Source: a virus
Reading direction: 5' to 3' (one strand)
Length of the DNA stretch: 33,348 nt
IMG/VR virus record: IMGVR_UViG_3300043411_001923
Location: 1 to 33,348 of that record
Shown: positions 3,713-33,348 of the stretch, piece after piece
Position numbering within the stretch: position 1 is the stretch's first letter
Layout: each line of letters starts with the position of its first letter
Notes under the pieces: model-generated
What the model saw: the letters and a program-made list of their open reading frames with translations, nothing else
What the model was told of the DNA's origin: nothing
Database searches by the model: none
Made by a program: the position numbers and the translations under genes

Positions 3713-3716
3713 CCCG

Positions 3717-3722
3717 TAGACT
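3717..3722 (+). promoter_or_regulatory. Putative -10 box of a leaderless promoter (TAGACT)
   Basis: TAGACT lies in the 16-nt gap after the tape measure stop and exactly 6 nt before the ATG at 3729. There is no Shine-Dalgarno-like purine tract between. An actinobacterial -10 box (TAnnnT) at this distance would start transcription at or next to the A of ATG, giving a leaderless mRNA. The same arrangement recurs at 12298 and 13852. No good -35 is visible. This is inference from pattern. Confidence 0.5.
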
Positions 3723-3728
3723 GGACCC

Positions 3729-5921
3729 ATGCCTGCGTACGGATACCTGCAGTGGGGTGACTGCGGCACCATCATCAATCCCCAGATGACGGTGGACTAC
3801 CTGACCGGCTCGGCGGCGTCCCTGGCGGTGGAGTACCCGCTGGAGGTCACCCTGCTGGATGCCGTACCCTGTGCAGCGGCCTACACCCCGGCCACGTCCG
3901 GCTCCGGGTACCAGGCCCCACACCTCGATCCTGCGCCCTGGTACGACCCCTCGCTGGGTGACGACCCCCTGACCAACCCCTCGGCGCAGTTCCTGGGCGT
4001 CATCATCTCCTCCGTGGAGGGCCTGGACAGCACCGTAGAGCGCAGCATGGAGACCCGGGCGGTAGGTGTGGGCGGAGGCGCCTTCGGCCCGCAGAGGGCG
4101 CTACAGCGTGAGCTGAGGTTCACAGGGACCCTCTACGCCTCGACGTGTCGTGGCATGGAGTACGGAATGACCTGGCTGACCCACACGATGCAGTCCCAGG
4201 GCTGTAGCACCGAGGGCCTGGCGACTCTGGAGCTGTGGACCGGCTGCCCGGACGGCGGCACGAACGACATCGAGCTGCAGGACAGCAGGCTCCAGTTCCG
4301 AGACACCTCTCTCATGAGCGGCCCCAAGTACACCGACGGCCCGTGGGAGACCAGGGCCTGCTTCCTTCGCCAGGTCGAGTGGACGATCGGGTCCGAGTCC
4401 CCGTACCGCTACAAGTGCCCCTACGACAAGGTCGCCGTCTCCGCCCTCAGCGTGGCCCCATCTGGCGACATCCCCATCTGCAACTGGCTGTCGGACTCCA
4501 CCCGTGTGGCCGTTCGTGGGTACCCGTCGTCACGGATGGGTGAGGACGTCCTGAACGTCGAACTGACGGCGGGTAATCGGCCCTTGAACTGTGACATCAG
4601 TGCCTGGGTCAGCCCGTTCGTGGACGCCGACTGTCGCAGCTTCAGCACCCCCCAACTGCGAGCAGAGACCGTCGATGAGGTCGTGAACTACTCGTGGGTG
4701 TACGAGGTCGGTCCAGACGGTTCCTGGACCAGGTACGACATGGCGGACGACGGCAGTTATCGAGGGCTTCCCAGCTACGGTACCGGGATCATGCTCGGCA
4801 CGACCGAGGGACCCGATGACGAAGAGACCTTCAGGGACATCAAGATCATCGCCACCGATGTCTCACCGGCCACCTACTCGTCTCGGCAGGTGAACGGCCT
4901 GCTCTACGCAGCGTCGTTCCGCAACTGCGCCATCATCGGTGCCGACCTGGACGTCAGCTACGTGGTCGACCCGACCACATCGTCGGGCAATCTGCGGCAC
5001 ACCCGTCATCGGGCGATCCGACTCAGCAACTTCACCGGCACCGCTCACATCGAGGGGGTGCGGATTCACGGCAGCACCTTGTACGAGGGCATCGATGCCG
5101 GATCCAAGTACCCCAGCGCTCAGCTCCACCTCCGTGACGTCCTGATCGAGGACGTGCAGATCTCCGGAGCCGACGGCGGCAACGCCGTACTCGTCAACGA
5201 CGGCCTCTACAGCTTCGAGACCGACGGAGTGACCGTGCTGCGCACTCGCAAGAACGGCATCGTGCTCCGACCGACCGACGTCGCTGAGGGTGGCACCGGC
5301 ATCATGCAGGAGGCCACGGTACGGCGGTTCAATGCGACGTCGAACGTAGCGTCGGGTGCGTCGCGTACGATGCTCTACTTCGGCAACCAGACGGCAGGCG
5401 ACCGGAGGACACAGGTTCGGCTGGTCGACTGCTGGAGCGGCTACGACGGGGGCGACAACGCCATCGTGGTAGCGGCAGCCTCGACCGGCGACATCCCTTG
5501 GACAGCCGGGGTGGACGACTACTTCCGAGACTACGCCGAATGGCTCTCTGGATCAGGTGCCGCAGTGTACGGCAGGTTCTACCGAGAGGACCCCACCGCT
5601 GACTTCGTGACTGCGGGGATGGTCGGTGCGGGGCGCTCTGACTTCGACGGTGCTTTCGGCGAAGCCTGCGCCAACTTCATGGTCCGTGATCTGCCGATCG
5701 GGTACCGGCTCGTGATTGACTCCGCCAAGGAGTTGATCAGCGTCTACGACCGAGCGGGCGTGTTGCGTGACGGGTCCCCGTACGTGGCGACCACCATCGC
5801 CACCGGATACCAGTGGCTGATCTTCGACCGGAACCCGATGTGTCTACTCATCAATCAGAGGCACGCCTTCGACGGTGACGGCGCCACCGTGCACGTCACG
5901 CAGACTCACAGGGATCTCTGA
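3729..5921 (+). CDS. Distal-tail-like minor tail protein with inserted beta-helix-like domain
   Basis: This is probably the distal tail or first minor tail protein, at the junction of tail tube and tip. It comes directly after the tape measure, where Dit-type proteins sit. Residues 1 to about 300 look like the tail scaffold, with several cysteines. Residues of roughly 310-590 are a repetitive stretch rich in short beta-strand patterns (for example AIIGADLDVSY, VLIEDVQISG, DGVTVLRTRKNGIVLRP), which resembles a right-handed parallel beta-helix of pectate-lyase type. The C-terminus, from about residue 645 (FMVRDLPIGYRLVIDSAKEL), again looks like tail scaffold. At 730 aa it is much longer than a plain Dit (about 250-350 aa), consistent with a host-recognition or polysaccharide-acting insert. 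I see no obvious catalytic site, so binding and enzyme activity cannot be separated. Its start is a gap gene with no Shine-Dalgarno. The stop overlaps the next start (TGATG). Confidence 0.75.
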   Translation: MPAYGYLQWGDCGTIINPQMTVDYLTGSAASLAVEYPLEVTLLDAVPCAAAYTPATSGSGYQAPHLDPAPWYDPSLGDDPLTNPSAQFLGVIISSVEGLDSTVERSMETRAVGVGGGAFGPQRALQRELRFTGTLYASTCRGMEYGMTWLTHTMQSQGCSTEGLATLELWTGCPDGGTNDIELQDSRLQFRDTSLMSGPKYTDGPWETRACFLRQVEWTIGSESPYRYKCPYDKVAVSALSVAPSGDIPICNWLSDSTRVAVRGYPSSRMGEDVLNVELTAGNRPLNCDISAWVSPFVDADCRSFSTPQLRAETVDEVVNYSWVYEVGPDGSWTRYDMADDGSYRGLPSYGTGIMLGTTEGPDDEETFRDIKIIATDVSPATYSSRQVNGLLYAASFRNCAIIGADLDVSYVVDPTTSSGNLRHTRHRAIRLSNFTGTAHIEGVRIHGSTLYEGIDAGSKYPSAQLHLRDVLIEDVQISGADGGNAVLVNDGLYSFETDGVTVLRTRKNGIVLRPTDVAEGGTGIMQEATVRRFNATSNVASGASRTMLYFGNQTAGDRRTQVRLVDCWSGYDGGDNAIVVAAASTGDIPWTAGVDDYFRDYAEWLSGSGAAVYGRFYREDPTADFVTAGMVGAGRSDFDGAFGEACANFMVRDLPIGYRLVIDSAKELISVYDRAGVLRDGSPYVATTIATGYQWLIFDRNPMCLLINQRHAFDGDGATVHVTQTHRDL

Positions 5922-13128: not shown

Positions 13129-13841
13129 GTTGCCAGGACTGCTCCGACACCTGTGGGTGCGCCGTTGGCGCCGGGGACGGCTCCATCGCCGTGACCGGCA
13201 ACGGCTCTGCCGCCACCCCGTACGCCGTGCGCACTCGACTCTCGGGCCAGCCCGACAACGCCCTGTCGATCCTGGGAGACGGCCTCTACATCTCCAGCGT
13301 GACCGCCATGGCGTCCGGCGGTACCATCGTCTGCACGTCGAGCACCCGCCCTGCTGGCAGTGACGGCCGACGGATCTTCGAGACCGACACCGACCGCACG
13401 CTCGTCTACAACAACAGCGCTTGGCGTGGTGAGCGGGCCTTCTCACAGCCGCCGAACCAGTTCCGAGGACTGTACTTCGACAGCCCCGGTGACGCCGCCA
13501 CGGTGCCGACCGTCATCGACACGGCGGCCAGCTTGCTGACCGCCCCCTACCCACTCCGCATGGTGGTCCGAGCCAATGGCTTCGGAGGCTACCCGGCGGC
13601 CAATCGACAGGGCGCTCTGCTAGAGCTGCTGGACAGTGCCGGTGCCGACCTCAGCCCCGAGTGGGGCGCCAAGTGTCGGGTGGACGCCGAGGCGTTCGAG
13701 TACGGTGCATTCGCCATGATCGGCTACAAGGACTACGCCGCTGGGGCGGTCTGCGGGTTCAAGCTCCAGTACACCGCCACTGCCGGTGACGAGAGGCTCT
13801 GGCTCAGGGGCGGCTACGAGATCGAGTTCATCCCGACCTGA
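13125..13841 (+). CDS. Minor tail protein, Cys-rich N-terminus
   Basis: The protein has 238 aa. It starts MSCQDCSDTCGCAVGAGDG, six residues of which could form disulfides or a metal site (five cysteines in the first 14 residues), followed by GSIAVTGNGSAATPYAVR. This GDG-x-VxGxG-x-xxPYxV pattern is frequent in actinophage minor tail proteins. The rest (LLTAPYPLRMVVRANGFGGY, GFKLQYTATAGDERLWLRGGY) is beta-rich with no catalytic motif. It is translationally coupled to the preceding gene by ATGA, so the two Cys-motif proteins may be partners. The exact role is unknown. Confidence 0.72.
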   Translation: MSCQDCSDTCGCAVGAGDGSIAVTGNGSAATPYAVRTRLSGQPDNALSILGDGLYISSVTAMASGGTIVCTSSTRPAGSDGRRIFETDTDRTLVYNNSAWRGERAFSQPPNQFRGLYFDSPGDAATVPTVIDTAASLLTAPYPLRMVVRANGFGGYPAANRQGALLELLDSAGADLSPEWGAKCRVDAEAFEYGAFAMIGYKDYAAGAVCGFKLQYTATAGDERLWLRGGYEIEFIPT

Positions 13842-13851
13842 CGCTGGGGCG

Positions 13852-13857
13852 TACGCT
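13852..13857 (+). promoter_or_regulatory. Putative -10 box of a leaderless promoter (TACGCT)
   Basis: TACGCT lies in the 22-nt gap after the last tail gene, 6 nt before the ATG at 13864, with no Shine-Dalgarno. This is the third occurrence of the TAnnnT-6-ATG arrangement in the late region. Confidence 0.45.
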
Positions 13858-13863
13858 GTTGTC

Positions 13864-14175
13864 ATGGACAGCATCACCACCTTCGTCAACGAGAACCTCT
13901 ACACGATCGCCTTCTTCCTCCCGATCGTGATCGGCCTGGTCGTGAAGGCTTCCCTGCCCAAGGGCGCCAAGTCCGTGGTCATGATCCTGCTGACCGGAGT
14001 CACGGCGCTCCTGGCAGAGATCGGCTCGACGGCGACCGGCCTACTGACTCCCGATCTCTTCGAGGCGTGGGTCAAGACCATGATCGTCACCATCGCCAGC
14101 TACTACGGCATCTACCAGAACATCGGCAGCCTCGGCAACCTGGCGCCGTCGAAGGGCATCGGCCCCTCCGCCTGA
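13864..14175 (+). CDS. Small membrane protein, holin candidate
   Basis: The protein has 103 aa and at least two, probably three, hydrophobic segments: residues of about 12-28 (LYTIAFFLPIVIGLVV), 38-52 (SVVMILLTGVTALLA) and 68-85 (WVKTMIVTIASYYGIYQ). The C-terminus is short and polar. Size, topology and position at the end of the tail cassette fit a holin, but no endolysin is adjacent in the window, so a membrane protein of other function is possible. It ends at a convergent junction, with its stop abutting the stop of the minus-strand phosphoesterase (TGATCA, no gap). Confidence 0.6.
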   Translation: MDSITTFVNENLYTIAFFLPIVIGLVVKASLPKGAKSVVMILLTGVTALLAEIGSTATGLLTPDLFEAWVKTMIVTIASYYGIYQNIGSLGNLAPSKGIGPSA

Positions 14176-16258: not shown

Positions 16259-16987
16259 TCAGTCGAACAGGTGCTGGATGGTATCCAGGATGGTGGGCAA
16301 GGTGGGTGATGGTATCGCCGGACCGTAGGTCTCTGTCAAGATCCCGGTGCGATCTTTCGCCTCGAACTCAGCCGTGGGCTGGATCAGGAGCATGCGATCG
16401 GTACTGCCGTCGGCGGACGGCTGAGTGTACAGGTACCCGACCAGGTCCACGAAGGCGGGCAGGCTCAGCTCCAGGGACCCCTTCACGAAGGGCCGGAACA
16501 CGTTGTCACGCTTGTGCGTCAGGCACAGGAAGATGACGGCCTTCAGGGGCTTGGTCGGGTGGAAGGTCATGTCCCGCAGCTTGCGGATGAAGTCCTCCAT
16601 CGAGCGCAGGATCTGACCCCACTGCTGCTGGGTCGGCTGCTCGACGCCCGACACGTTGTCCACCAGGCGCTTCTGGATCTCCGTGAGGCTGTCCAGCACG
16701 ACCGAGTTGAACGGGTGCTGGCCGGACTGCAGGACCTTGTAGGCGGCCGCCACGGTGCTCCACTCGACGGTGGAGACGATGCAGTAATCCCAGTCGCCCG
16801 CCTCGGGCACCGGCTCGGTGTTGGGGTCCCAGCGGATCTTGCGGCCCCGGATGAAGCGGAAGCCGCCCTCGGCGTCGAGCACGAGCACCGGCCCTGGGGC
16901 GGTGGCGGCGAAGGTCGACTTGCCGACCCCCGGCTCCCCGTGGATCACGGCGCACAGGTTCGCCTCGTCGGTGATGACCTCGGTCAT
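16259..16987 (-). CDS. Sak4-like RecA-fold ATPase (recombination)
   Basis: The protein is 242 aa from the ATG at 16987, which overlaps the nuclease stop as ATGA. Walker A is HGEPGVGKST near residue 16 and Walker B is NSVVLDSLTE near residue 98. Further conserved segments are MEDFIRKLRDM and VIFLCLTHKRDN. The short RecA-core layout matches Sak4-type single-strand annealing or recombination ATPases of phages. In this family the protein works with an SSB and a nuclease, and both candidates flank it here. It probably promotes homologous annealing during replication or repair. The start chosen removes 17 residues of open frame upstream that lie inside the nuclease gene. Confidence 0.85.
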   Translation of the reverse strand: MTEVITDEANLCAVIHGEPGVGKSTFAATAPGPVLVLDAEGGFRFIRGRKIRWDPNTEPVPEAGDWDYCIVSTVEWSTVAAAYKVLQSGQHPFNSVVLDSLTEIQKRLVDNVSGVEQPTQQQWGQILRSMEDFIRKLRDMTFHPTKPLKAVIFLCLTHKRDNVFRPFVKGSLELSLPAFVDLVGYLYTQPSADGSTDRMLLIQPTAEFEAKDRTGILTETYGPAIPSPTLPTILDTIQHLFD

Positions 16988-18876
16988 GTGGTGGTCTCCT
17001 CGTTGTCGGGGTTGTCGTAGCGTTCGAGCGGGTTCCACTGGACGTACATGACGTCGATCAGGGACTCACTGTCGGTGCGGGGGTCGTCCATGTGGGGGCA
17101 GACAGCGTAGAACGGGCACCGCCAGGTGCAGTCGTTGCTCGGCGTCGGGTACGCCACCTCCTGGTGGTCGGCACCGGCATCGAGGGCGGCCTGCAGCTCC
17201 AGCAGGACGGTGATCTCCCCGTGCAGCCGGTGCCAGAACACGGTGAGCTGCTTGTCGCTCCAGGCGATGTCGGAGCGAAGGTAGAAGGGCGGCTTGGCCG
17301 TGGCGCTCCGCTTCACCTTGCGCAGCATGTTCCAGATGGAACCCTGGATCGGGCGGTCCGGGTTGTTGCGGCGCTGGATCACGGCGTAGTGCCGGGACTG
17401 CTCGTTCATCGGCAGCAGGGAGATGACCGAGTCGAAGCCCTGCACCGTGTTGTGGGTGACCTTGTAGTCGTCGGTGATGTAGTGGTGGCCGGGGGACACC
17501 TCGATGCACTGCGTCTCGGCAACGCCGTCAGGCTCGACGGCGACGATCACGTGCCGCAGCTCCCTACGCTCGAAGCCCAGGTACCGCTCGACCTTCATGC
17601 TCAGTCGGAACGGCGGACCCAGTTCGTCTGGGATTCGGATCGACACGTGCCAAGTGGGGTTACCGGCAACGTTCTCGAACTCGGATGTCGTAGCGGTTCC
17701 GCCGAGCGAGCGCACCAGGTCCTCGATGCCCGAGCGCAGCTCGGGGGTCACAGTGATGAAGCGCACACGTCCGTGCGTGTCACAGTGTCCATCCGAGTCG
17801 AGGAGGCCGCGCAGCAACTCCATGCGCTGTTCGATGGATCCCTGCAGGTACTGCTCGGGGATGTGCTTGCACTTGCTGCCGATCAAGTCGAGTGCCGAGA
17901 GGAGCCACCGAGTCTTGCGGAGGTGCAGCTTCTGCGGATCCTTGTACCCGGTCGAGACTGGGGTGCCCGCATCGACCAGGTGCTGGACCATCTCCGGCTG
18001 ATCAGCCTCTCCACACGTGACCGTGGTTCCGTGGTTCGACCCGTCACCCAGCCAGACTCCCAGCACGTAGGGCGGCAGCAGCAGGTCGGTACGCTCGGGG
18101 AACTCGATGATCGGCACTGGTGTTGAGTAGCGGTACCGCTTACCTGTGGCGAGCCGTTCGAGGATCTCTACCGTCGTCTTCGGAGCGGTCTCCCCGGAGA
18201 TCACGTCGGTGACCGTCCAGAGGTGTCCCGCCCCGGCACGTGCCGATGAGCCGTCCTTGAACTTGACCCGGTAGACCGGCTGCTCGCCCTTCGGGAAGAC
18301 CCCGGTCACGAGACCGTTGCCGCCCTCTGGGGTGCTGACGATCTCGCCAACCTTCAGGTCACCGTTACTCTTCCACCCAAACGGCGTGAGCACCTTCGAG
18401 TCGAGCGGCTGGTCCTTGTGGTCGAGGGTGTACAGGATCCCGTCACGCTCGGCCACCAGGTCGAGCTTGCCCAGCAGCTCCACGCCCATCTCGTCGAAGG
18501 GTGCCGGGGCCGGGCAGGTGATCTTGCCCTCGACCGAGGTGATGATCAGGTCCTGGTCGGCGCCGGTCACCGACAGCCACTCGAAGTACCCGTCGATCAT
18601 GGCGTCCGCCAGGGCGTACTCCTTGGCGTACGTGTCCGCCTCGGGGTCGGTGATGCGGCGCTTGCGGAAGTCCACCAGGACCTTGCTGGCGTCCCGTGCA
18701 GGGTCCTTGTAGTACTGCTCCAGGGCATCGTGCACCAGGGTGCCGGTCTGGGCGGCCTTGCCGGACCCGTCGTTGCGGCGCTTGGCCAGGCGCCGGTAGT
18801 ACCCGAGGTACCACTGGCGGCGGCACTGCTTCAGCGCCTGCAGCTCCGAGTTCGTGACGTACCTCGGCTCAACCAT
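16984..18876 (-). CDS. Cas4/RecB-like 4Fe-4S exonuclease, interrupted by an intein
   Basis: The precursor is 630 aa; removing the 322-residue intein gives a 308-aa nuclease, normal for the family. The PD-(D/E)xK core is visible: GTLVHDALEQ (His49), GKLDLVAERDG (Asp139) and YTLDHK (Asp152, Lys154), with the intein inserted right after Lys154 and before the conserved Thr of LDHKT. The four cluster cysteines are Cys18 (LKQCRRQW) and Cys583, Cys587, Cys593 (DCTWRCPFYAVCP), as in Cas4/AddB-type enzymes. It likely resects DNA ends for the Sak4-like ATPase downstream. The ATG at 18876 was preferred to an upstream in-frame start because the N-terminal Cys motif follows directly and the gene overlaps the previous stop by 8 nt. 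Activity should depend on splicing. Confidence 0.93.
   Translation of the reverse strand: MVEPRYVTNSELQALKQCRRQWYLGYYRRLAKRRNDGSGKAAQTGTLVHDALEQYYKDPARDASKVLVDFRKRRITDPEADTYAKEYALADAMIDGYFEWLSVTGADQDLIITSVEGKITCPAPAPFDEMGVELLGKLDLVAERDGILYTLDHKDQPLDSKVLTPFGWKSNGDLKVGEIVSTPEGGNGLVTGVFPKGEQPVYRVKFKDGSSARAGAGHLWTVTDVISGETAPKTTVEILERLATGKRYRYSTPVPIIEFPERTDLLLPPYVLGVWLGDGSNHGTTVTCGEADQPEMVQHLVDAGTPVSTGYKDPQKLHLRKTRWLLSALDLIGSKCKHIPEQYLQGSIEQRMELLRGLLDSDGHCDTHGRVRFITVTPELRSGIEDLVRSLGGTATTSEFENVAGNPTWHVSIRIPDELGPPFRLSMKVERYLGFERRELRHVIVAVEPDGVAETQCIEVSPGHHYITDDYKVTHNTVQGFDSVISLLPMNEQSRHYAVIQRRNNPDRPIQGSIWNMLRKVKRSATAKPPFYLRSDIAWSDKQLTVFWHRLHGEITVLLELQAALDAGADHQEVAYPTPSNDCTWRCPFYAVCPHMDDPRTDSESLIDVMYVQWNPLERYDNPDNEETTT
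17449..18414 (-). other. Intein, class-3-type (WCT), with LAGLIDADG endonuclease
   Basis: These 322 codons lie within the nuclease. The first residue is Asp155 (DQPLDSKVLTPFGW), not Cys or Ser, and the last are VTHN (Asn476) followed by Thr477. The block A, B, F and G patterns are present. Class 3 inteins lack an N-terminal nucleophile and use a Trp in block B, a Cys in block F and a Thr in block G. Here these are Trp220 (GHLWTV), Cys457 (TQCIEV) and Thr474 (VTHN). The homing endonuclease has two LAGLIDADG helices, VLGVWLGDGS and LRGLLDSDGH, both with the acidic residue, so it may still cut. A class 1 intein with a lost Cys1 is the alternative, but the complete WCT set argues against it. Confidence 0.9.
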
Positions 18877-19060
18877 TCGGATGCTCCCTGATCCACAACC
18901 GGGCCGTGGAGACGAGTGCCAGGACCTGAAGCTCTGCGTAGGACATCCCGTCCATGGAGTTGGCGAGTGCGACTGGATCCTCACTGGCGAGGATCTCGTC
19001 GAGCTTGTCCCGACCCCACTGATGCCGCTGAGCGTTGGTCATCTTCAGGACGTTGGTCAC
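18869..19060 (-). CDS. Small protein of unknown function
   Basis: The protein is 63 aa from the GTG at 19060, which overlaps the helicase stop (GTGA). An internal ATG at 19042 is an alternative start. It is helical with a conserved-looking C-terminal half (SYAELQVLALVSTARLWIREHP). I do not recognise it. It lies between helicase and nuclease, coupled to both (its stop overlaps the nuclease ATG by 8 nt), so it may be a small cofactor of one of them. Confidence 0.7.
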   Translation of the reverse strand: MTNVLKMTNAQRHQWGRDKLDEILASEDPVALANSMDGMSYAELQVLALVSTARLWIREHPNG

Positions 19061-20844: not shown

Positions 20845-21281
20845 TCGGGGTGGATGTCCTTTCGACTGATGCGGCCCTGCTTCAGGGACCACACAGCGAG
20901 GTGTCGGAGGGCGTCGTTGGCGTGGCCCTTACCTCGGGCGTACCAACCTAGGTTCCGCAGTGCGGCGTTGTCAACCATGCGCATCACGTCGGCGGGGAGT
21001 TGGTACACCGGGGTCGGCCACCCGTTCTCCCGGGCCAGGAACTCCAGCACGCCGATCGTCTGGATGGCGTCGTGCATCCCCTCACGTGACTTGCGGATGG
21101 ATCCGGCGTTGAGCACGAACCGCTCGATCACGAGCTGCACGTCGATCCGGTCTCCGAACTGCTCGGAGACCCGGTGCTGGAAGACCTTGAACTCGGCCTG
21201 GTCCGCCGTCGGCGCCTCCTCGGTCGTATCGAGGACGGCGTAGCCGGTCATGGTGCCCGGGTCGACAGAGAGGACGATCAC
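20841..21281 (-). CDS. RuvC-like Holliday junction resolvase
   Basis: The protein is 146 aa with an RNase H-fold start, VLSVDPGTMTGYAV (Asp7). The other catalytic acids are Glu53 (LVIERF) and Asp123 (GHANDALRH), in the spacing expected of RuvC-family resolvases. It would cut four-way junctions formed in recombination or before packaging. The start is GTG, 15 nt after the previous stop, with TACGAT 7 nt upstream and no Shine-Dalgarno. The stop overlaps the helicase GTG. It is slightly shorter than bacterial RuvC (about 170 aa), as is usual in phages. Confidence 0.9.
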   Translation of the reverse strand: MIVLSVDPGTMTGYAVLDTTEEAPTADQAEFKVFQHRVSEQFGDRIDVQLVIERFVLNAGSIRKSREGMHDAIQTIGVLEFLARENGWPTPVYQLPADVMRMVDNAALRNLGWYARGKGHANDALRHLAVWSLKQGRISRKDIHPE

Positions 21282-21288
21282 GGGGACG

Positions 21289-21294
21289 ATCGTA
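21289..21294 (-). promoter_or_regulatory. Putative -10 box of a leaderless promoter (TACGAT)
   Basis: On the minus strand TACGATCGTCCCC runs straight into the GTG of the resolvase gene, a 7-nt spacing with no Shine-Dalgarno. It sits in a 15-nt gap in an operon where most other genes overlap. Almost the same string, TACGATCGTCACC, precedes the ATG at 24873. Confidence 0.45.
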
Positions 21295-21296
21295 GG

Positions 21297-21452
21297 TCAC
21301 GGACCCCCTACACCGTCCCGGGTCTCGGCCTCCTTGACAGCGTGCTCGGCGTACGTGCCCGGGTGCTTCGTCAGCACGTGGTCGGCCAGACGCCTCGGTG
21401 TCTCGAACTCCCTCTGGCAGTAGAGGCAGAAGGTCTCGTCGAGGATGCTCAC
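21297..21452 (-). CDS. Small C2H2-like zinc finger protein
   Basis: The protein is 51 aa from the GTG at 21452 (GTGA overlap with the previous stop). FCLYCQREFETPRRLADHVLTKH has the C-x2-C-x12-H-x4-H layout of a C2H2 finger and fills most of the protein. It may bind DNA or act as an adaptor. A longer open frame extends upstream but lies inside the previous gene, so the short form is preferred. Confidence 0.75.
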   Translation of the reverse strand: MSILDETFCLYCQREFETPRRLADHVLTKHPGTYAEHAVKEAETRDGVGGP

Positions 21453-21745
21453 AGCACCTCCCGGTTGGCATCGTAGACGGTGCCGTCCGGGCCGACGAAG
21501 TGGGCGCCACGGGGAGCGGGGTCGCCCTCCCACAGCACGATGGCGGGCTGTGGGCCGTAGAGGCGGACGGCGAACTGACCGACCTTGTCGTCCCACGACA
21601 GCGGCTGGCTGTCGTTCACCGAAACGCACAGCTCATGCTCTCGGCAGTACCGGATCAGGCGGACGAGGTCGTCGAAGTCGGGGCCGTCGGCCCGCTCGGT
21701 GATGAGGTGCAGGTCGACGGTGTCGAACTCGGGCATGAGGCTCAC
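21449..21745 (-). CDS. Small protein of unknown function
   Basis: The protein is 98 aa from the GTG at 21745 (GTGA overlap); an ATG three codons in (21736) is also possible. DFDDLVRLIRYCREHELCVSVND and GQFAVRLYGPQPAIVLWEGD suggest a compact alpha/beta protein. I do not recognise the family. It is one of four overlapped small genes at the head of this operon. Confidence 0.75.
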   Translation of the reverse strand: MSLMPEFDTVDLHLITERADGPDFDDLVRLIRYCREHELCVSVNDSQPLSWDDKVGQFAVRLYGPQPAIVLWEGDPAPRGAHFVGPDGTVYDANREVL

Positions 21746-22134
21746 TGCGCTGCCCTCCAGGCGGAGCGGTCGCCCCGGTAGATGATCTCGAAGTTCTGAC
21801 CGGCGACGTCCAGCTCGCCGTGCTCCAGCACGATGCGGGTGATGTTCATGAAGTCGGTGCCGACCAGGGTGAGCACGTCGCCGTCGAAGACGTTGAGCTT
21901 GGTGATGCCCGGCACGCTGGCGGTGTGTGACATCGAGACGACCTCGCCGACCTTGACCGGCCAGGTCTCGGCCTCGGTGTGCCCGTTGTACTTGACCGTG
22001 GCCTCGCCGGGGTTGACGATCAGCTCGATCTCGATCGGCTCCGGCTCCGGGAACGTGTGGTCCTGGTCCTCCAGACCGCACGTGGCGCAGCGGAAGCTGC
22101 CGTGGGTCGGCTCGAAGATGCAGGTGGTGCTCAT
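21742..22134 (-). CDS. Protein with N-terminal Cys/His motif and Ig/TIG-like C-terminus
   Basis: The protein is 130 aa. The first 27 residues carry C-x6-H and CATCGLEDQDH, a possible zinc ribbon. The second half, SVPGITKLNVFDGDVLTLVGTD, is beta-rich and resembles an IPT/TIG-type fold, but this is a weak call. Function is unknown. Its ATG shares one base with the previous stop (TGATG), so it is translated with its neighbours. Confidence 0.75.
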   Translation of the reverse strand: MSTTCIFEPTHGSFRCATCGLEDQDHTFPEPEPIEIELIVNPGEATVKYNGHTEAETWPVKVGEVVSMSHTASVPGITKLNVFDGDVLTLVGTDFMNITRIVLEHGELDVAGQNFEIIYRGDRSAWRAAQ

Positions 22135-22364
22135 CAGAAAGGCTCCTCAGTGGCGGGGGCGGTGGGGGTGGCGATGACCGTGGCCATGATTGCGGCCTGC
22201 TCGGCCTCGGCCTCGGCGAACTCATCCTCGAAGTCGAAGGGGTCGAACGCCTCGGTGTGGACGCAGGCGCCGAGCTGGAAGGCGGCGCAACAGACGTCGG
22301 GGTCAGCGTCCCAGAGTCGGGGGGTGTCTCGCATCTCCAGCTCTTCGATCAGGTGTGGGTGCAT
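22134..22364 (-). CDS. Small acidic protein, first gene of the replication operon
   Basis: The protein is 76 aa and strongly acidic (FDPFDFEDEFAEAEAEQAA), with paired cysteines (DVCCAAFQLGACVH) and a Thr/Pro/Ala tail. It has no recognised family. It has a strong Shine-Dalgarno (GAGGAGGAG) and lies about 35 nt downstream of a predicted transcription start from the promoter at 22404-22432. A small, acidic, first-gene product would suit an early host-interaction protein, but that is speculation. Confidence 0.75.
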   Translation of the reverse strand: MHPHLIEELEMRDTPRLWDADPDVCCAAFQLGACVHTEAFDPFDFEDEFAEAEAEQAAIMATVIATPTAPATEEPF

Positions 22365-22403
22365 CTGGTCTCCTCCTCGGGGGCCTCTCCCCCTCGGACA
22401 CCT

Positions 22404-22432
22404 AATTTAGTCGACCTCTTGCCGCTGCGCAA
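22404..22432 (-). promoter_or_regulatory. Promoter TTGCGC-17-TAAATT driving the replication operon
   Basis: Reading the minus strand, TTGCGC (22432-22427), a 17-nt spacer ending GTCGAC, and TAAATT (22409-22404) form a canonical sigma-70 layout. The element is shared with two promoters near 23607-23914, including ACTTGCG and GTCGACTA. A degenerate inverted repeat CTTGC-N6-GCAAG covers the -35 region. The short leader contains a GGGGG/CCCCC hairpin before the Shine-Dalgarno. Confidence 0.75.
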
Positions 22433-22433
22433 G

Positions 22434-22856
22434 TCAGACGCTCAGGTTCCTGCGGTACTCGGCCTCCAGCTCGACGGCGGCGTAGAACCCCATCTCCCGG
22501 CGGACCAGGGCGATCATGGCGGACCGGAAGATCGGCCCGTGCCCGTCGGCCTGCACCGTGGCGACGTGCGCCAGCTCGTGCAGGATGGTGGCCAGGGAGC
22601 GGCCCCACGGGTTGTTGGGGATGGAGACCAGGCCCTCCGCCCCGTGTCCCAGGGCGAAGCTCGCCGAGCTGGAGCGGGCCTCCACTTCGATCCCGGTGTG
22701 GGCGGCCCGGTACTGGTGCTGCCACCAGTCGGACGTGGTGAGGTGCGCAACGTAGTCCCGCACCTCGGCCATCGTGGCGAACCGCCGGGTGACCGGGCCG
22801 AGGACGGTGTCCTCAGCCCGGTACACGGCGTCAGGAAGCGAGCGAACCACGGACAC
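22434..22856 (-). CDS. HExxH zinc metallopeptidase-like protein
   Basis: The protein is 140 aa from the GTG at 22856, which has an AAGGGGG Shine-Dalgarno and overlaps the DUF2786 gene by 26 nt. ATILHELAHVATVQADGHGPIFR gives HExxH plus a third His 11 residues later, as in SprT-like or related small zincins. It is cytoplasmic, with no signal peptide. SprT-type proteins cleave DNA-protein crosslinks, but in phages these small forms are uncharacterised. The overlap with the DUF2786 gene indicates linked expression. Confidence 0.82.
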   Translation of the reverse strand: MSVVRSLPDAVYRAEDTVLGPVTRRFATMAEVRDYVAHLTTSDWWQHQYRAAHTGIEVEARSSSASFALGHGAEGLVSIPNNPWGRSLATILHELAHVATVQADGHGPIFRSAMIALVRREMGFYAAVELEAEYRRNLSV

Positions 22857-23568
22857 CGGACACCCCCTTCGTGCCGATGTCGGCCTTGGCCCCGGCAGCC
22901 GACCCCGCAGCGTAGGCGTCGTAGCGGGAGCTGCCCCGGGAGCTGCGGGTGTACCGCGGCTTCCGGTTGTAGAACTCCTGGTACTTGTCGGCCACCACGT
23001 CCCGGCGCTCGGCAAGGACCAGGGCGACCGACGAGCTGGCGTCCTCGGCCTCAGCCTCGGCGACGGCGGTGTCGACGGCGCTGGCCAGGTGGGCCTTGAT
23101 GCGGTTGCCGACCTTGCGGACCCAGCCGTTGGCGAAGCTGGTCCGCCGGGCACGGGTGTCGCCCGAGCTGTAGCCCGAGACCTTGTGCAGCTCACGGTCG
23201 AGCTGCAGCTCCAGGCTGGTCATCAACGCCTCGAAGGTGGCCAGGTCGGACACGTGCCCGACGATCGCCAGGCGCTTGCTGCCCTGGGGTCCGCCGTGCG
23301 CCCAGAGGACGTGGCAGTCGAGGGCCTCGGCCAGGTGGACGGCCAGGCGCCCCTTCGGGCTGTGGTAGCCCGACAAGTCGATGAAGGCCCGGTCGACCGG
23401 GTCGTTGGCGGCCTTGCCTGCAGCGGCGAGGACTGCCTCGTCCACCCGGTACTTGGCCATCAGGTCGGTGGCCTTGTCGAGGAAGGCCGCAGCCTCCTCC
23501 TCGAACTCGGAGGACTCGGCCTTGGCCAGCAGTCCACGGATGCGGTCGATGATCTTCTCTTCGGTCAC
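22831..23568 (-). CDS. DUF2786-type protein
   Basis: The protein is 245 aa from the GTG at 23568, with AGGAGG 5 nt upstream. The N-terminus KIIDRIRGLLAKAESSEFEEEA ... FLDKATDLMAKYRVDE is the DUF2786 signature (IxxLLxxAxxT...EAxxAxxKAxxLMxKY). The middle (HVLWAHGGPQG, LAIVGHVSDLATFEALMTSLELQL) matches the domain that usually follows it. The C-terminus is Ser/Arg/Gly-rich and probably disordered. Function is unknown; the family is widespread in phages and often adjacent to small zincins, as here. It is the first gene from the minus-strand half of the divergent promoter. Confidence 0.88.
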   Translation of the reverse strand: MTEEKIIDRIRGLLAKAESSEFEEEAAAFLDKATDLMAKYRVDEAVLAAAGKAANDPVDRAFIDLSGYHSPKGRLAVHLAEALDCHVLWAHGGPQGSKRLAIVGHVSDLATFEALMTSLELQLDRELHKVSGYSSGDTRARRTSFANGWVRKVGNRIKAHLASAVDTAVAEAEAEDASSSVALVLAERRDVVADKYQEFYNRKPRYTRSSRGSSRYDAYAAGSAAGAKADIGTKGVSGVRGSLAS

Positions 23569-23606
23569 GCTGCCTCCTCTGCCGGGGCCGTTCCCCGACG
23601 AGCACC

Positions 23607-28026: not shown

Positions 28027-28200
28027 CTAGTGTCGCACCCAGTCCGGGTCGAAGGTGAAGCCCCCCTGGCTCATGGCGAGGACCGACCCGAGCGGCCGGG
28101 ACTGGCCCGGCTCGGATTCGGGATGCACGAGGAGCGGCTCATGTGTCGGATCGTCGGTGACCCAGACGGTGCGGCCGGTGCGGCCGACGACGGTGCTCAC
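28027..28200 (-). CDS. Small protein of unknown function
   Basis: The protein is 57 aa from the GTG at 28200, which overlaps the stop of the 1420-aa gene as GTGA. The sequence includes GRTVWVTDDPTHEPLLVHPES and ends FTFDPDWVRH. No family is recognised. The overlap and the gap of only 5 nt to the next gene support it as real. Confidence 0.65.
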   Translation of the reverse strand: MSTVVGRTGRTVWVTDDPTHEPLLVHPESEPGQSRPLGSVLAMSQGGFTFDPDWVRH

Positions 28201-31200
28201 GAGATCTCCTCCAGGGCCTTCACTGCGTTCTTCATGCTCATCTGGATCCCGTCGTCCTCGATGGTGACGAGTGTATCGGGCATCCGCTCGGCGAGCACGT
28301 GAGCCACGTCCTGGAGGTAGTGCAGGTCCGGGACCCGGACCTCCTTGACGTGCTTCGAGGACAGCTCGATCGGCGACCGGAGCTGCACCTCGACGTAGTC
28401 CCGACCCATCTGGAACGGGTGCACCCCGTTGAGCGCAGCGGCCCGAGGATCGATCGGACCCTCTACCGGCAGCGGCACGGACCCGGAGTTGAGCGAGTCG
28501 GCGATCGTGAAGGTGGCGTCGTCACGGGCCTCATCACTCATGACCAACTGGATCTCGCCGTACCAGGTAGCGGCCAGTGGCGAGACCCGGTGATTGATGT
28601 CGGTCGAGCCGTCAACGATCGGCTCCAGGGAGAACTCGGCCTCGGAGTACCCGTGCACCACGTAGCCCATGTCGAGGCCCACGGCAGCGTCGTACAGGTC
28701 ACGGTGCTTCAGGTACTCCTCACCACGCAGCGAGCGCCCCACCTCGTTCTCGGGATCGTGCATGGACCGCAGCTCCCAGTCCTCCGGCTCGCTGTAGTTG
28801 ACGATGTCCGACAGACGGTCCGCCGAGATGCGGACCACGACCTCGGCGTCCTGGACCTGCTGCTGGGCGTAGGCGGCGGACTCGACGTCCAGGAGCCGGA
28901 TGTTGCTGGTCGTCTCACGGTACTGGTCGTACGCCTCCTGGTCGGCGATGCCCGGGATGCCGTCGTCGGCGCCCGGTGTGCTGCCGCCAGTGCCGATGGG
29001 CGGCGGAGCGCAGGATGCATCGTGGCATGCGGCCAGCAGGCTCTCGGGCATGTCCGGCAGGTCGTCGGTCTCGGCGTCCCGGGCGGCGCCCATGTAGAAC
29101 GCTGCAATGGCGTCGAGGCGTGCCTGGCGGCTCGGGCTGGCGGCGGCCGTGGTCGCTGGCGGAGTCAGCGTCTTCACACCGTGCCACCCGATGTTGTCGG
29201 TGTACCGGAAGGCGTCCAGCTCGAAGACCTCGGCGGGCGTCGGGTCGTCATCTCGGAGAGTGTACGGCTCACCCACTCGCCGTGCCTCCTGGATGCGATC
29301 AGCGAACTCCATGAAGCGCTTCGACCCGTCGGACTGCTTCCGGCTGTACTCCAAACCGGCCTCACCGATGGTGTACGACGGCGACAGGCGGCGACTTTCC
29401 TTGCTGCGCAGCTCAAGCACGTCCCCTAGGTGGCGCTGGTCCCAGTCGTATCCGAACCGGCCCCAGTTCGATGCGCCACGGAGGTAGCCGAGCTGATGAC
29501 CGCTGTTGTTGGCGGCGTGCAGCTCGATCCTGTTGAACCCGGCGTTGCGCAGACCCTCCTCGGTGCGCACATAGAACCGACCACCGATGCCCTTGCCGAT
29601 GTAGTCACGCTTCAGGACGACGATGTCGAAGTCGGCCCACGTCCCGCTGCTGTCCTTGAACAGCACGAACTTGAACTCACCGATCCGCTTGCCCTTCTTC
29701 GAGAGGAGGTCGCCGTGCACACTGATCGCATTGCCCCCCATCGGTGACGCGTAGCTGACCTCGGACCGGTACCCGTACTTGATGCTGTGGTTGAAGATCA
29801 GCCCGGCCTGGCGCTTCAGCTCACGCCTCGCATCAGTGCCGTACGCCTTGCGGGGGTCTGCCTCGTGCTCGGCGGCCAGAGCGAACAGCGCCTCGGCGCT
29901 CGTGCCGACACCGGGGGAGGATCCACCCTTCCCGACCGGTGGCGGAGCGCACTCCTTGGACCGGCAGGCGAACCCGTAGACCTCCAGCCCGGCGAACGGG
30001 TCGGCGGATGCAGCGAGAGCTGCGTTCGCTTCGTCGGACGGCTCGCCGTTGAGGAGGCGCTGGACGAGTCCCGGACGCCCGACGATGACCTCACCCTGCA
30101 TGACCATGTCACGGTTGGCCAGCTCCAGGACCCGCTTCCCGGCAGCCGAGTCGGGATCGAAGACCGGCAGCGTCCCCTCGATCTCGTAGCCGTCAACCCA
30201 GTCGACCACGCCGGGCATGTACGGCCGCCCCTCGACGCGAAGCTCCTTGCGCTCGTCGGTGGTGACGGGGCGCATCCCCGGGTACTTCGACGACGAGGCG
30301 TAGCCCAGCTCGCCCGGAGCGTCGACCGTCGCGAACGGGTTGGGCTTCGGGCGCATTTGGACGACGGTGATGTCGTCCTCGCCATCCCGCACGAATCGGT
30401 GAAGTCGGTGCCACCCGTCGATGATGAACTCGTCCGAGTAAGGCGATGTGATGACCCCCCAGCGCTCGCCGGGAGGGTTGACCATCCGGGGATCGTCCGG
30501 CACCAGAGCCATGTACGCAGCGTGGTACGCGGCCCAGTCGTCACCGAAGTCAGCAGCGATGTCGGGGACCTGCATCGCCCGACGCTTCGCCTCCTCGATC
30601 GGGAGCACCTCCACGTCGTACACGAACTTGTTGACGTGCTCTGCGGGGTCGATGACATCCCCCTCGCTCACCCACTGGAGAACGGCGCCCTTGGCGGATG
30701 ACGGAAGGTCGGCGAACGGCACCCCGACGACGGCCTCACCGGAGTCACCCTCCGGCTCCGTCGCGGTGAACGGGTTGTTGAGCCGGGCGTCGGCCTCGTC
30801 GAGGCGGTCCTTGTCGTTGCCCGGCTTGCTGCCGCCTGTCCCGGTCGGGGGTGGTGCACAGTCGGCGGACTGGCAGCCTGCGGCGGTCAGGTCCTCGTCG
30901 GCCAGCGGCTCGTACCAGGTCTCGTCCTCGGCCAGGGTGAAGGTGATCGCCCGCTCAACCCAATCCGTGAAGATCGATGCGGCCAGCGCAGCCTCGGTGC
31001 GCAGGTCGGAGATGTTCATCTGCAGCTCCATCTGGACGGCGTTGCCACCCTCAGGCATACCGCCGAGGGCCTGCTTGGCGACCGGGCTGGCGAGCAGGTC
31101 GGCAGTGCTGACCGGGTTGCGGCCGCGCAGTCGGGTGGCCAACGTGTCGTCACCTGCCGTCCGGTAACGGGCGCCGAGCTTGTTCCGTGTCGTACGGGCG

Positions 31201-32459
31201 GTGACCATTCCGGTGGGTGTGTCGAAGCCTGCACGGAGCCAGGTGTAGACCCCGTTGCTCGTCTTGGTCGAGAGCGCCGAGGTGCTGACCAGGGTCACGC
31301 CCTCATCGGCGGCACGGCGCATGGACTCGGCGATGAAGGCCGAGCCGATGCCCTTGCCCTGGTGCTGCGGCATGACCGACAGGCTGTCGTGGTGCATGCG
31401 CCAGCCGTCGACCTGGCGAGTGAAGTAGCCGACGGCGTGTTGGCGGAGCCGACCGCCGCCGATTGGGACGGGGGCGAAGATGGTGCCCTCGATCGTCACG
31501 ACCCCGGCGTCGCTCTCTTCGACCTCGTTGGTCTTGGCGATGAACTTGCGCCCCTCCCTGTCGGTGAACTCGAACTCGAAGACCCGCTTGGCGGCATCCT
31601 CGCCGTCGGTGACGAAGCCCTCGGGCAGGTCCTCGACGTCATCGAGCGCACCGTCGGGTGAGCTGCCCCCGGTGCCCGTGGGTGGTGGTGCGCACTCGGC
31701 CGTGTGGCACGCCAGCTCGATGAGGCTGGACACCAGGTTCTCGGGTGGCACGATCGGGAAGGTCCCGGACTTCAGGCGAGCGACGACGTCGGGGCTGTTG
31801 GCCACCAGGACCTCACCCTTCACGTTCATGTCGCCGATGCGGCCCAGGACCCGGTCAGCACCGACGTCGACCGTGACCATGTCGTCGTAGTAGCTCTGCC
31901 ACGCCTCGGTCATCCCCGCAGAGCGGGGGGTCCACCAGGAGGTGACACCGGTGCCGCCGCCCTCGGTCTTGCGCAGGAACGAGTACGGCCCGTCGGTCGG
32001 ATGGAAGGGGTCGACGCCGCTCTCGGTGGCTCGCATGCGGCGGCTGAAGGTCCAGGTCTCCCCGGCCATCTCCCGCTCGATCTCCTCGTGCTTGATGCGC
32101 AGCATCTCGACCATGAACGGGAGCGGCTTCGGGTCCCGCAACGTGCGGGAGACTCCGGAGCGGCCGTCGACCGACATGACGAGGTACTGCCATGCCCCGG
32201 CCGGACGATCCTCGAACCCCAGCTCCGTGCCGACGGCGCCGAGGTGCTTGGTCAGCTTGTTGCGGCCGGTCTTGGTCTTGGCCAGCGCCACGATCTCCTG
32301 GCCGACGGCGATGGCTCGGGCCTGCAGGTCGGCGTGCTTCTTGGGTATCCCCCGATACAGCCCCTCAGGGATCCCGCCGCCGGACGGCTTCGAGCCGCCG
32401 GTCCCGATGGGGGGCGGGGCGCAGGATGCATCGTGGCACGCCAGCTCGATCAGGGACAT
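28197..32459 (-). CDS. 1420-aa modular protein with five Cys/Pro tags and GNAT and ParB-like domains
   Basis: Five tags of the form C-x4-C-A-P-P-P-x-G-x-G-G-S divide the protein into five segments of about 230-300 residues. Segment 1 (24-250) is unrecognised. Segment 2 (267-528) holds a GNAT acetyltransferase motif (MPQHQGKGIGSAFI, near 366). Segment 3 (545-831) has a ParB/sulfiredoxin-like motif (FIIDGWHRLHRF, near 680). Segment 4 (848-1144) has a second GNAT motif (YIGKGIGGRFYV, near 954). Segment 5 (1161-1420) is unrecognised. Segments 1 and 3 end alike (NVKGEVLVANSPDVVARL and VMQGEVIVGRPGLVQRL). No signal peptide or membrane segment is seen. GAGGGG abuts the ATG directly, an unusually short spacing. 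It may be a cargo polyprotein whose modules are processed or carried together; this is inference. Confidence 0.85.
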   Translation of the reverse strand: MSLIELACHDASCAPPPIGTGGSKPSGGGIPEGLYRGIPKKHADLQARAIAVGQEIVALAKTKTGRNKLTKHLGAVGTELGFEDRPAGAWQYLVMSVDGRSGVSRTLRDPKPLPFMVEMLRIKHEEIEREMAGETWTFSRRMRATESGVDPFHPTDGPYSFLRKTEGGGTGVTSWWTPRSAGMTEAWQSYYDDMVTVDVGADRVLGRIGDMNVKGEVLVANSPDVVARLKSGTFPIVPPENLVSSLIELACHTAECAPPPTGTGGSSPDGALDDVEDLPEGFVTDGEDAAKRVFEFEFTDREGRKFIAKTNEVEESDAGVVTIEGTIFAPVPIGGGRLRQHAVGYFTRQVDGWRMHHDSLSVMPQHQGKGIGSAFIAESMRRAADEGVTLVSTSALSTKTSNGVYTWLRAGFDTPTGMVTARTTRNKLGARYRTAGDDTLATRLRGRNPVSTADLLASPVAKQALGGMPEGGNAVQMELQMNISDLRTEAALAASIFTDWVERAITFTLAEDETWYEPLADEDLTAAGCQSADCAPPPTGTGGSKPGNDKDRLDEADARLNNPFTATEPEGDSGEAVVGVPFADLPSSAKGAVLQWVSEGDVIDPAEHVNKFVYDVEVLPIEEAKRRAMQVPDIAADFGDDWAAYHAAYMALVPDDPRMVNPPGERWGVITSPYSDEFIIDGWHRLHRFVRDGEDDITVVQMRPKPNPFATVDAPGELGYASSSKYPGMRPVTTDERKELRVEGRPYMPGVVDWVDGYEIEGTLPVFDPDSAAGKRVLELANRDMVMQGEVIVGRPGLVQRLLNGEPSDEANAALAASADPFAGLEVYGFACRSKECAPPPVGKGGSSPGVGTSAEALFALAAEHEADPRKAYGTDARRELKRQAGLIFNHSIKYGYRSEVSYASPMGGNAISVHGDLLSKKGKRIGEFKFVLFKDSSGTWADFDIVVLKRDYIGKGIGGRFYVRTEEGLRNAGFNRIELHAANNSGHQLGYLRGASNWGRFGYDWDQRHLGDVLELRSKESRRLSPSYTIGEAGLEYSRKQSDGSKRFMEFADRIQEARRVGEPYTLRDDDPTPAEVFELDAFRYTDNIGWHGVKTLTPPATTAAASPSRQARLDAIAAFYMGAARDAETDDLPDMPESLLAACHDASCAPPPIGTGGSTPGADDGIPGIADQEAYDQYRETTSNIRLLDVESAAYAQQQVQDAEVVVRISADRLSDIVNYSEPEDWELRSMHDPENEVGRSLRGEEYLKHRDLYDAAVGLDMGYVVHGYSEAEFSLEPIVDGSTDINHRVSPLAATWYGEIQLVMSDEARDDATFTIADSLNSGSVPLPVEGPIDPRAAALNGVHPFQMGRDYVEVQLRSPIELSSKHVKEVRVPDLHYLQDVAHVLAERMPDTLVTIEDDGIQMSMKNAVKALEEIS
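28980..32438 (-). repeat. Five copies of the CxxxxCAPPPxGxGGS tag
   Basis: 48-nt copies lie at 32438-32391 (CHDASCAPPPIGTGGS), 31709-31662 (CHTAECAPPPTGTGGS), 30875-30828 (CQSADCAPPPTGTGGS), 29966-29919 (CRSKECAPPPVGKGGS) and 29027-28980 (CHDASCAPPPIGTGGS). Copies 1 and 5 encode the same peptide and are nearly identical in DNA. Copies 1 and 2 also share the preceding SLIELA coding sequence. Spacing between copies is 729-939 nt. Confidence 0.95.
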
Positions 32460-32463
32460 CCCC

Positions 32464-32877
32464 TCAGGCTACCGGCTGGGGCACCTCGTCCCGGATCCAC
32501 TGCTTCAGCTTCTCCAGGGGCGGGAAGCTGTAGGCGGCGTAGTGCTTCGGGATCTCGAAGACCGGCAGGCCGTGGGCGTGGGCCGTGGCGATCTCAGCGT
32601 CGGCGCCGGAGCTGGCGCCCGGGAACCGGACGACACCCTGGGTGCGGAGCATGACGGCGATGTCCAGCTCGTACCAGTCCTCGACCGGGCGAGGGGTGAT
32701 GGCGTGCCACAGCAGGGTCGTGTGCGGCACCACCGGGTAGCAGAGCTTGAAGTCCATCAGCCGGTTGGCGAACTGGATGATCCGGTGCGTGTTCTCCACC
32801 GGGTCCGGGTTCGTGTACGGCCCGGCGATGTAGAGCACGGGCCGGTGCTTCGGCGGTGCGATGGCCATCTCGTTCAC
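32464..32877 (-). CDS. DUF4406 / nucleoside deoxyribosyltransferase-like protein
   Basis: The protein is 137 aa from the GTG at 32877 (GTGA overlap); an ATG three codons in (32868) is an alternative. VLYIAGPYTNPDPVENTHRI at the N-terminus and VVRFPGASSGADAEIATAHAHGLPVF are the two conserved segments of the DUF4406/deoxyribosyltransferase-like fold, which binds nucleotides. With thyX two genes upstream it may act in nucleotide salvage or modification. The catalytic role is not certain. Confidence 0.82.
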   Translation of the reverse strand: MNEMAIAPPKHRPVLYIAGPYTNPDPVENTHRIIQFANRLMDFKLCYPVVPHTTLLWHAITPRPVEDWYELDIAVMLRTQGVVRFPGASSGADAEIATAHAHGLPVFEIPKHYAAYSFPPLEKLKQWIRDEVPQPVA

Positions 32878-33068
32878 AGCTTGTCTCCGATCTTGAACCA
32901 GCGGAGCTTGTCCAGGTTGACGGTCACCCGGTCGCCCGAGTTGCTGTTGCGGTAGCTGAGGTAGCGGTGCTTGTGATCCGAGTGGATCTCGGTGGCGAGC
33001 ACCTCCCAGGAGGTCCCGTCGGAGAAGGACACCTTCAGGGTCCGGACGGTGTGCACGGACTCGCTCAC
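32874..33068 (-). CDS. Small protein of unknown function
   Basis: The protein is 64 aa from the GTG at 33068, which overlaps the thyX stop as GTGA. It is mostly beta (RTLKVSFSDGTSWEVLATE, RVTVNLDKLRWFKIGD) with a His/Lys/Arg centre (HSDHKHRYLSYRNSN). No family is recognised. Confidence 0.72.
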   Translation of the reverse strand: MSESVHTVRTLKVSFSDGTSWEVLATEIHSDHKHRYLSYRNSNSGDRVTVNLDKLRWFKIGDKL

Positions 33069-33348
33069 GGGCCGACCCTCCCGAACTCCTCGAAGGCGGC
33101 CCAGGTGATCGGCATCGTCTCGGAGAAGATGCGCTCCATCTCCTCCGACGCCATGGCGATCTCCCGCATCGGCTTGGACGGATACGCAGCATCGCTGCGT
33201 TCCGTCCGCAGGCTGAGGAAGGACATCAGGCTCCGGGCGTTGCACGTGGCGTACATGGCGGAGTACACGTTGACCGGCAGCGTCATGCGGGCCACCTCCT
33301 TGGCGTAGCCACGCCAGAGGCGGTCCTGGTACCTCGTGTAGAGGTTGG
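33065..33348 (-). CDS. thyX: Flavin-dependent thymidylate synthase ThyX (N-terminus outside window)
   Basis: Only the C-terminal 94 or so residues are present, reading in from the window end (NLYTRYQDRLWRGYAKEVAR). LPVNVYSAMYATCNARSLMSFLSLRT matches the ThyX core (LPxxxYTxxxxxxNxRxLxHFLxLR), followed by PMREIAMASEEM (the usual EIR segment) and ITWAAFEEFGR. ThyX methylates dUMP using folate and FAD. The signature RHRxxSxNExSxRY should lie upstream, outside the window. The segment after LRT carries a short insertion (ERSDAAYPSK) relative to the common D-x-x-AQxEIR form. It is first of the overlapped genes in view. Confidence 0.9.
   Translation of the reverse strand, partial: NLYTRYQDRLWRGYAKEVARMTLPVNVYSAMYATCNARSLMSFLSLRTERSDAAYPSKPMREIAMASEEMERIFSETMPITWAAFEEFGRVGP

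Follow-up and report, generated by a model that had tools for sequence, protein, structure and literature searches.

A repeated cysteine-bearing tag in a modular phage protein and its possible role in addressing proteins to the virus head

The locus analyzed here raises the question of what a short cysteine-bearing peptide does that recurs five times within a single phage protein. The window, by which we mean the whole stretch of viral DNA of 33,348 nucleotides that was analyzed (IMG/VR record IMGVR_UViG_3300043411_001923), encodes this protein of 1420 aa on its minus strand, in a reading frame which is open throughout from an ATG at position 32459 to position 28197. The original prediction described five evenly spaced tags, and pattern matching confirmed five exact copies of C-x4-C-A-P-P-P-x-G-x-G-G-S with start-to-start distances of 243, 278, 303 and 313 aa (Table 1). 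The full tag is about 22 residues long, and in 20,000 shuffles of the protein it did not appear once. Since the codons vary synonymously among the copies (GCC CCG CCC CCC, GCA CCA CCA CCC and GCT CCG CCA CCG), it is the peptide that is conserved, and reading the copies as a DNA repeat was rejected. A lipoprotein signal with an LxAC lipobox was rejected as well because MSLIELAC has no charged and hydrophobic region and four of the copies are internal.

Table 1. Tags and modules of the 1420-aa protein and their positions in the window.
Feature	Sequence	Residues	Position	Strand	Remarks
Whole reading frame, five tag-module units		1420 aa	28197..32459	-	
Tag 1	CHDASCAPPPIGTGGSK	aa 8-24	32388..32438	-	Seven residues past start; pattern match
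Module 1		aa 25-244	31728..32387	-	ADP-ribosyltransferase-like by eye only (YRG...SWW...GEVLV)
Tag 2	CHTAECAPPPTGTGGSS	aa 251-267	31659..31709	-	Pattern match
Module 2		aa 268-522	30894..31658	-	GNAT acetyltransferase, PF00583 E=1e-7, acetyl-CoA loop QGKGIG intact
Tag 3	CQSADCAPPPTGTGGSK	aa 529-545	30825..30875	-	Pattern match
Module 3		aa 546-826	29982..30824	-	Possibly ParB/sulfiredoxin-like (DGWHRL)
Tag 4	CRSKECAPPPVGKGGSS	aa 832-848	29916..29966	-	Pattern match
Module 4		aa 849-1138	29046..29915	-	Second GNAT, loop IGKGIG; kin to Jera gp5 C-terminal GNAT
Tag 5	CHDASCAPPPIGTGGST	aa 1145-1161	28977..29027	-	Pattern match
Module 5		aa 1162-1420	28200..28976	-	Weakly DUF3626-like

A domain-sized unit follows every tag, and the proposed head-to-tail joining of five tag-plus-domain units is supported. 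That each tag precedes a new domain holds only in part, as the domains of units 2 and 4 come from a single family. Both are GNATs, as had been predicted: unit 2 was assigned by its Pfam match and unit 4, a diverged member with an equally intact acetyl-CoA loop, by its homology with unit 2 and further GNATs. In a tblastn search against named phages, unit 4 matched the C-terminal GNAT of Microbacterium phage Jera gp5 (E=3e-4). The predicted ParB-like module has its motif, but the family match that goes with it, of aa 625-704 to PHROG 17560, is weak (E=0.016). Module 5 gave a weak tblastn match to DUF3626 proteins of Nodularia phages (E=2) and is locally similar to the DUF3626 protein of the phage DSL-LC01 in a small search space. 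For module 1 the family search returned no significant match, and its ADP-ribosyltransferase (ART) identity was not confirmed by any search. With the whole protein as query, tblastn against the named phages gave no match at 1e-5; at E<=2 the matches were limited to the Jera GNAT and the weak ones to DUF3626 proteins. Searches for related loci with the whole protein, unit 1 and unit 5 did not find close relatives. Single-sequence AlphaFold2 models reached a mean pLDDT of 36 (aa 1-826) and 35 (aa 827-1420), which is too poor for fold searches.

The tag itself proved to be more widespread than the protein. IMG/VR was scanned with a degenerate DNA pattern, and a second variant that was seen on inspection was extended by a further scan. 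The two main variants are CAPPPxGxGGS and CRPPxSGGxGGS, the latter in full C-x4-C-R-P-P-x-S-G-G-x-G-G-S. The total came to 32 tags, borne by 25 proteins of nine contigs, namely the window and eight other phage contigs; the 32nd tag lies at aa 45 of the protein encoded at 88813-90615 of contig G004. Pattern matches in L007 and on contigs G008 and G009 were rejected as chance matches. The typical bearer is a separate gene with a single tag within the first ~60 residues, so that the single tag-domain units for which the original prediction had proposed to search do exist on related contigs. Contigs G001, G003 and G004 encode six or seven tagged genes apiece with mostly unrelated downstream segments, and some of their copies are internal. 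Several tags per protein were found at G001 681-3374 (two Cys tags and one motif of a second type, see below), at G004 3652-5220, which reads tag-GNAT-tag-YunG-like, and at G004 88813-90615 (two tags). The downstream segments fall into three small families and about nineteen singletons. As about twenty of them are mutually unrelated, the tag is not a property of one fold family, nor is it the structural linker of a single-fold family that the original prediction had set against itself. In GTDB, 20 strict DNA matches included no convincing in-frame tag (two in-frame matches were unrelated), and a prophage copy was thus not found. The tag was also not found in named phages, where short-peptide tblastn with either tag is insensitive and the direct look covered the fetched head regions. 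One of the Cys-tagged proteins, a member of the phrog_3842 family (G003 21223-23598, minus strand), holds an intein-like insertion (CFDTETELL...) that is missing from its homologues on G001 and G010.

A second motif, FY-x(2-5)-[RH]-D-x-x-G-[RKQ]-[FW], is placed ahead of modules in the same way as the Cys tag, and both occur together in single proteins of G001, G005 and G006. The module EPDSGFT...TGGTGGDR carries the Cys tag on G004, G006 and G007 and the tag FYxxxHDxxGRF on G003. Because this module is found under either of them, the tags are exchangeable. The second tag forms a concatemer of its own at G003 67398-69257 (L021:7398-9257, minus strand), where three copies precede a MazF/PemK-like module (PF02452, above the cut-off), a phrog_3170 module and a ParB-like module; two more copies are present in the adjoining gene at 66050-67219 (L021:6050-7219, minus strand). 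Taken together, the FYNKxHDxxGRF-tagged modules of these two genes include a MazF/PemK-like toxin domain as well as GNAT-like and ParB-like modules. The GNAT family of units 2 and 4 is Cys-tagged in the window and on G001, G003 and G004. A GNAT of the same family directly follows a MuF-like domain in Jera gp5, and another stands under a third tag in a protein of Exiguobacterium phage vB_EalM-132. The gene for this GNAT and its tagged neighbor lie just upstream of the portal, prohead protease and capsid genes. Jera gp5 (PP405127, L071:3004-5007) is annotated as a capsid maturation protease and reads as a MuF-like head protein (HPNCRC) with a C-terminal GNAT. In vB_EalM-132 (MH884511, L083:7541-12111), two adjacent and otherwise differing proteins beside the head genes have the N-terminal sequence VQV(R/K)GKNG(K/R)xF(T/S)RMQWVDP in common. 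This motif occurs at four places in the genome and looks like a phage-specific tag of similar logic.

The eight related contigs have portal, head protease and capsid proteins in common with Arthrobacter phage Atuin, Actinomycetia phage DSL-LC01, Gordonia phage Phendrix and Microbacterium phage Pumpernickel, among which DSL-LC01 is a metagenome assembly with Actinomycetia as predicted host (PMC10611076). The three contigs of ~100 kb encode 19 tagged genes, of which 13 are found no more than 10 kb from the terminase gene, where 3.8 would be expected (binomial p=6e-6, the genes not being fully independent). Moreover, a tagged gene is located between portal and protease on G005, the head maturation protease of G002 is itself tagged C-terminally of its protease domain, and the N-terminal domain of a tagged G001 protein is part of a protease-containing head protein in Pumpernickel gp84. 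Two observations run against a link to the head, namely a tagged GNAT gene of G003 which lies ~50 kb from the head genes, and the 33-kb window itself, a fragment with tail and replication genes in which no head genes were recognized. Unlike most of its tagged relatives near head genes, the tagged gene of the window adjoins genes of nucleotide metabolism. Directly upstream of it, an overlapping, operon-like run (32464-33348, minus strand) encodes the C-terminus of ThyX, a 64-aa reading frame and a nucleoside deoxyribosyltransferase, and the tagged frame starts four bases past the last of these genes. Elsewhere in the window (16984-18984, minus strand) a PD-(D/E)XK nuclease-like protein is split by an intein-like insertion that harbors a LAGLIDADG homing endonuclease (PF12705, PF14528).

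We consider it rather probable that the 1420-aa protein is a polyvalent effector protein packaged into the head of a tailed, actinophage-like phage, and that its tags act like the capsid-targeting sequence (CTS) of phage T4. The tag may serve its bearers as an address label for entry into the virus head, a function which fits the exchangeability of the tags, their N-terminal placement, the neighborhood of head genes and the MuF fusion. A packaging or delivery role had been among the original suggestions. It is favored by the gene neighborhood of the tagged relatives and by the MuF-GNAT fusion of Jera, whereas the position of the window copy away from head genes speaks against it. Besides, four of the five copies in the protein are situated mid-protein, unlike the N-terminal CTSs known so far, and one tag (G001 13469-13924) lies close to the C-terminus. 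For the tagged proteins we infer a virion location, a binding partner, ejection and an effector role, which could be connected as follows. The ~22-residue tag would bind some constituent of the core or the inner shell of the prohead in the manner of the T4 sequence, and the tagged protein would be enclosed in the prohead ahead of DNA packaging, be ejected with the DNA and modify host targets early in infection. The recognition element would be the Cys pair together with the Pro-Gly stretch, forming a small loop held by a disulfide or a metal. Such a site at the tag pair is suggested by the scarcity of cysteine in the rest of most tagged proteins (figures below). Fusion of five units would allow their one-to-one co-packaging, where relatives encode tagged units as separate genes. 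The fivefold repeat might confer a higher affinity for the prohead or reflect the fusion of formerly separate genes.

Another explanation, which we regard as unlikely, is that the tag is a processing site at or near which the prohead protease or another protease cuts, so that five effectors are freed from the polyprotein. In its favor, the fused units have equivalents among separate single-unit genes, and a Gly/Ser-rich stretch follows each tag. In addition, the tag of G002 lies just C-terminal of the protease domain, the place where another prohead protease has a self-cleaved propeptide (PMC10052503). However, the capsid proteins of the tag-bearing phages, which are the main substrates of a prohead protease, carry no tag. 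An HMM built from the tags found matched no capsid, portal or terminase gene. A general cleavage motif of the prohead protease was therefore rejected, given that capsid and portal proteins of these phages are free of the tag. Moreover, most tags of single-unit proteins lie near the N-terminus, where a cut would release only the tag, and the two invariant cysteines are not obviously needed for cutting. By analogy with the T4 CTS, targeting and cutting could also be combined in the tag.

Slightly less probable still is a structural or oligomerization element, linked by disulfides or metal, which connects tagged proteins with one another or with a shared partner outside the head, for example in an intracellular complex. 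This explanation draws on the cysteines, which count for the address-label reading as well. All 10 cysteines of the 1420-aa protein belong to the tags and none occurs in the ~1390 other residues; at the 1.04% Cys of the other window proteins, the chance of this is about 5e-7. The tape measure protein of the window is likewise free of cysteine, and the absence as such is thus not unique. Among all tagged proteins, cysteines outside the tags amount to 29 in 9770 residues and are scarce in most; seven of the 29 sit in one tagged protein which holds an intein-like insertion. For comparison, cysteine makes up 1.18% of the capsid proteins, 1.44% of the proteases and 0.38% of the portals. A scan without the requirement for the first Cys returned only Cys-bearing tags apart from out-of-frame or unrelated matches, and the pair and its spacing hence look fixed. 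On the other hand, the tagged genes cluster near terminase, portal and protease genes, and the same module family is also found under a Cys-free tag, which suggests that the cysteine chemistry is not required for the service that the tag renders to its module. Finally, it is very improbable that the tag is a neutral, recombination-favored Pro/Gly-rich linker which late-gene shuffling has spread and which binds nothing. For such a linker speak its richness in Pro, Gly and Ser, its recurrence at domain joints and its occurrence together with the second joint motif in single proteins (G001, G005, G006). Against it, the peptide is kept despite synonymous codon variation, and phages whose modules are only distantly related agree in both Cys, in the CxPP core and in the GG. 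Many single-domain proteins, moreover, have the tag at their very N-terminus, a position that does not call for a linker.

The address-label reading can be extended beyond this locus, albeit tentatively and with chances that we put a little below even. Tailed phages might load arbitrary effector modules into the head by means of a small set of exchangeable peptide tags and string the tagged modules into polyproteins with one tag per module. Together with C-x4-CxPP...GGS, such a set would comprise FYxxxxxDxxGRF/W and, in the Exiguobacterium phage, the VQVRGKNGKxFxRMQWV type. The Cys tag would add to the known recognition elements a new one, distinct in its chemistry. In the literature we did not find a repeated, exchangeable tag of this kind described. 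To our knowledge, little has been learned beyond T4 and P1 about the way in which phages select the proteins that travel in the head. With a tag recognizable from sequence, such cargo could be listed directly, dozens of hypothetical proteins would at once become candidates for delivery, and the polyvalent-protein idea could be tested gene by gene. The tag would also be a short peptide with which proteins of choice could be loaded into the heads of actinophages.

The original statement that no known system comes to mind was too strong, as polyvalent proteins and the capsid-targeting sequences of T4 and P1 are close functional precedents. Another likeness is seen in DSL-LC01 (L049), Atuin (L050) and Pumpernickel (L074), where proteins encoded between portal and capsid, some of them giant (2200-3290 aa), have RDxxG[RK][FW] near the N-terminus or at their joints. 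As with the tag, this motif, more fully [QKR]xRDxxG[RK][FW], recurs at such places in diverse head-region proteins. It differs from the Cys tag in sequence and has no cysteines, although a related motif stands beside the Cys tag on G001, G005 and G006; a paper describing it as a tag was not found. Effector delivery with the DNA has been proposed for MuF-ART fusions (PMC9503650). The MuF-effector fusion Jera gp5 has a GNAT homologous to ours attached to a head protein, with MuF in place of a tag and a single effector instead of five tagged units. Polyvalent proteins, as presented in the sections of Iyer et al. 2017 that we draw on (PMC5512222), combine several effector-type domains in one phage polypeptide and are presumed to reach the host together with the DNA. 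The 1420-aa protein resembles them in having at least two such domains, the two GNATs, besides three further domain-sized units. Its ParB-like and ART-like domains, which belong to the polyvalent class, are weak assignments, and no MPTase, MTase-helicase or primase parts typical of that class were detected in it. A repeated tag ahead of each domain, which is present here, is not described in those sections. In T4, a 10-residue CTS directs an internal protein to the prohead (PMC9026906), and in P1 the N-terminal 30 aa of DarB suffice for packaging, while no common consensus was found among the Dar proteins (PMC9024508). Like T4 IPI, IPII and IPIII and P1 DarB, the tag bearers have a short sequence in common within one phage lineage and are otherwise unrelated; on G001, G003 and G004 this sequence is N-terminal on several unrelated proteins of one phage. 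The T4 and P1 proteins are loaded into the prohead and ejected, as the tag bearers may be. In contrast to the T4 and P1 sequences, the tag has a Cys pair and a CxPP core, may stand internally and is repeated up to five times. It is common to up to seven genes per phage, and the comparison with the T4 CTS is one of layout.
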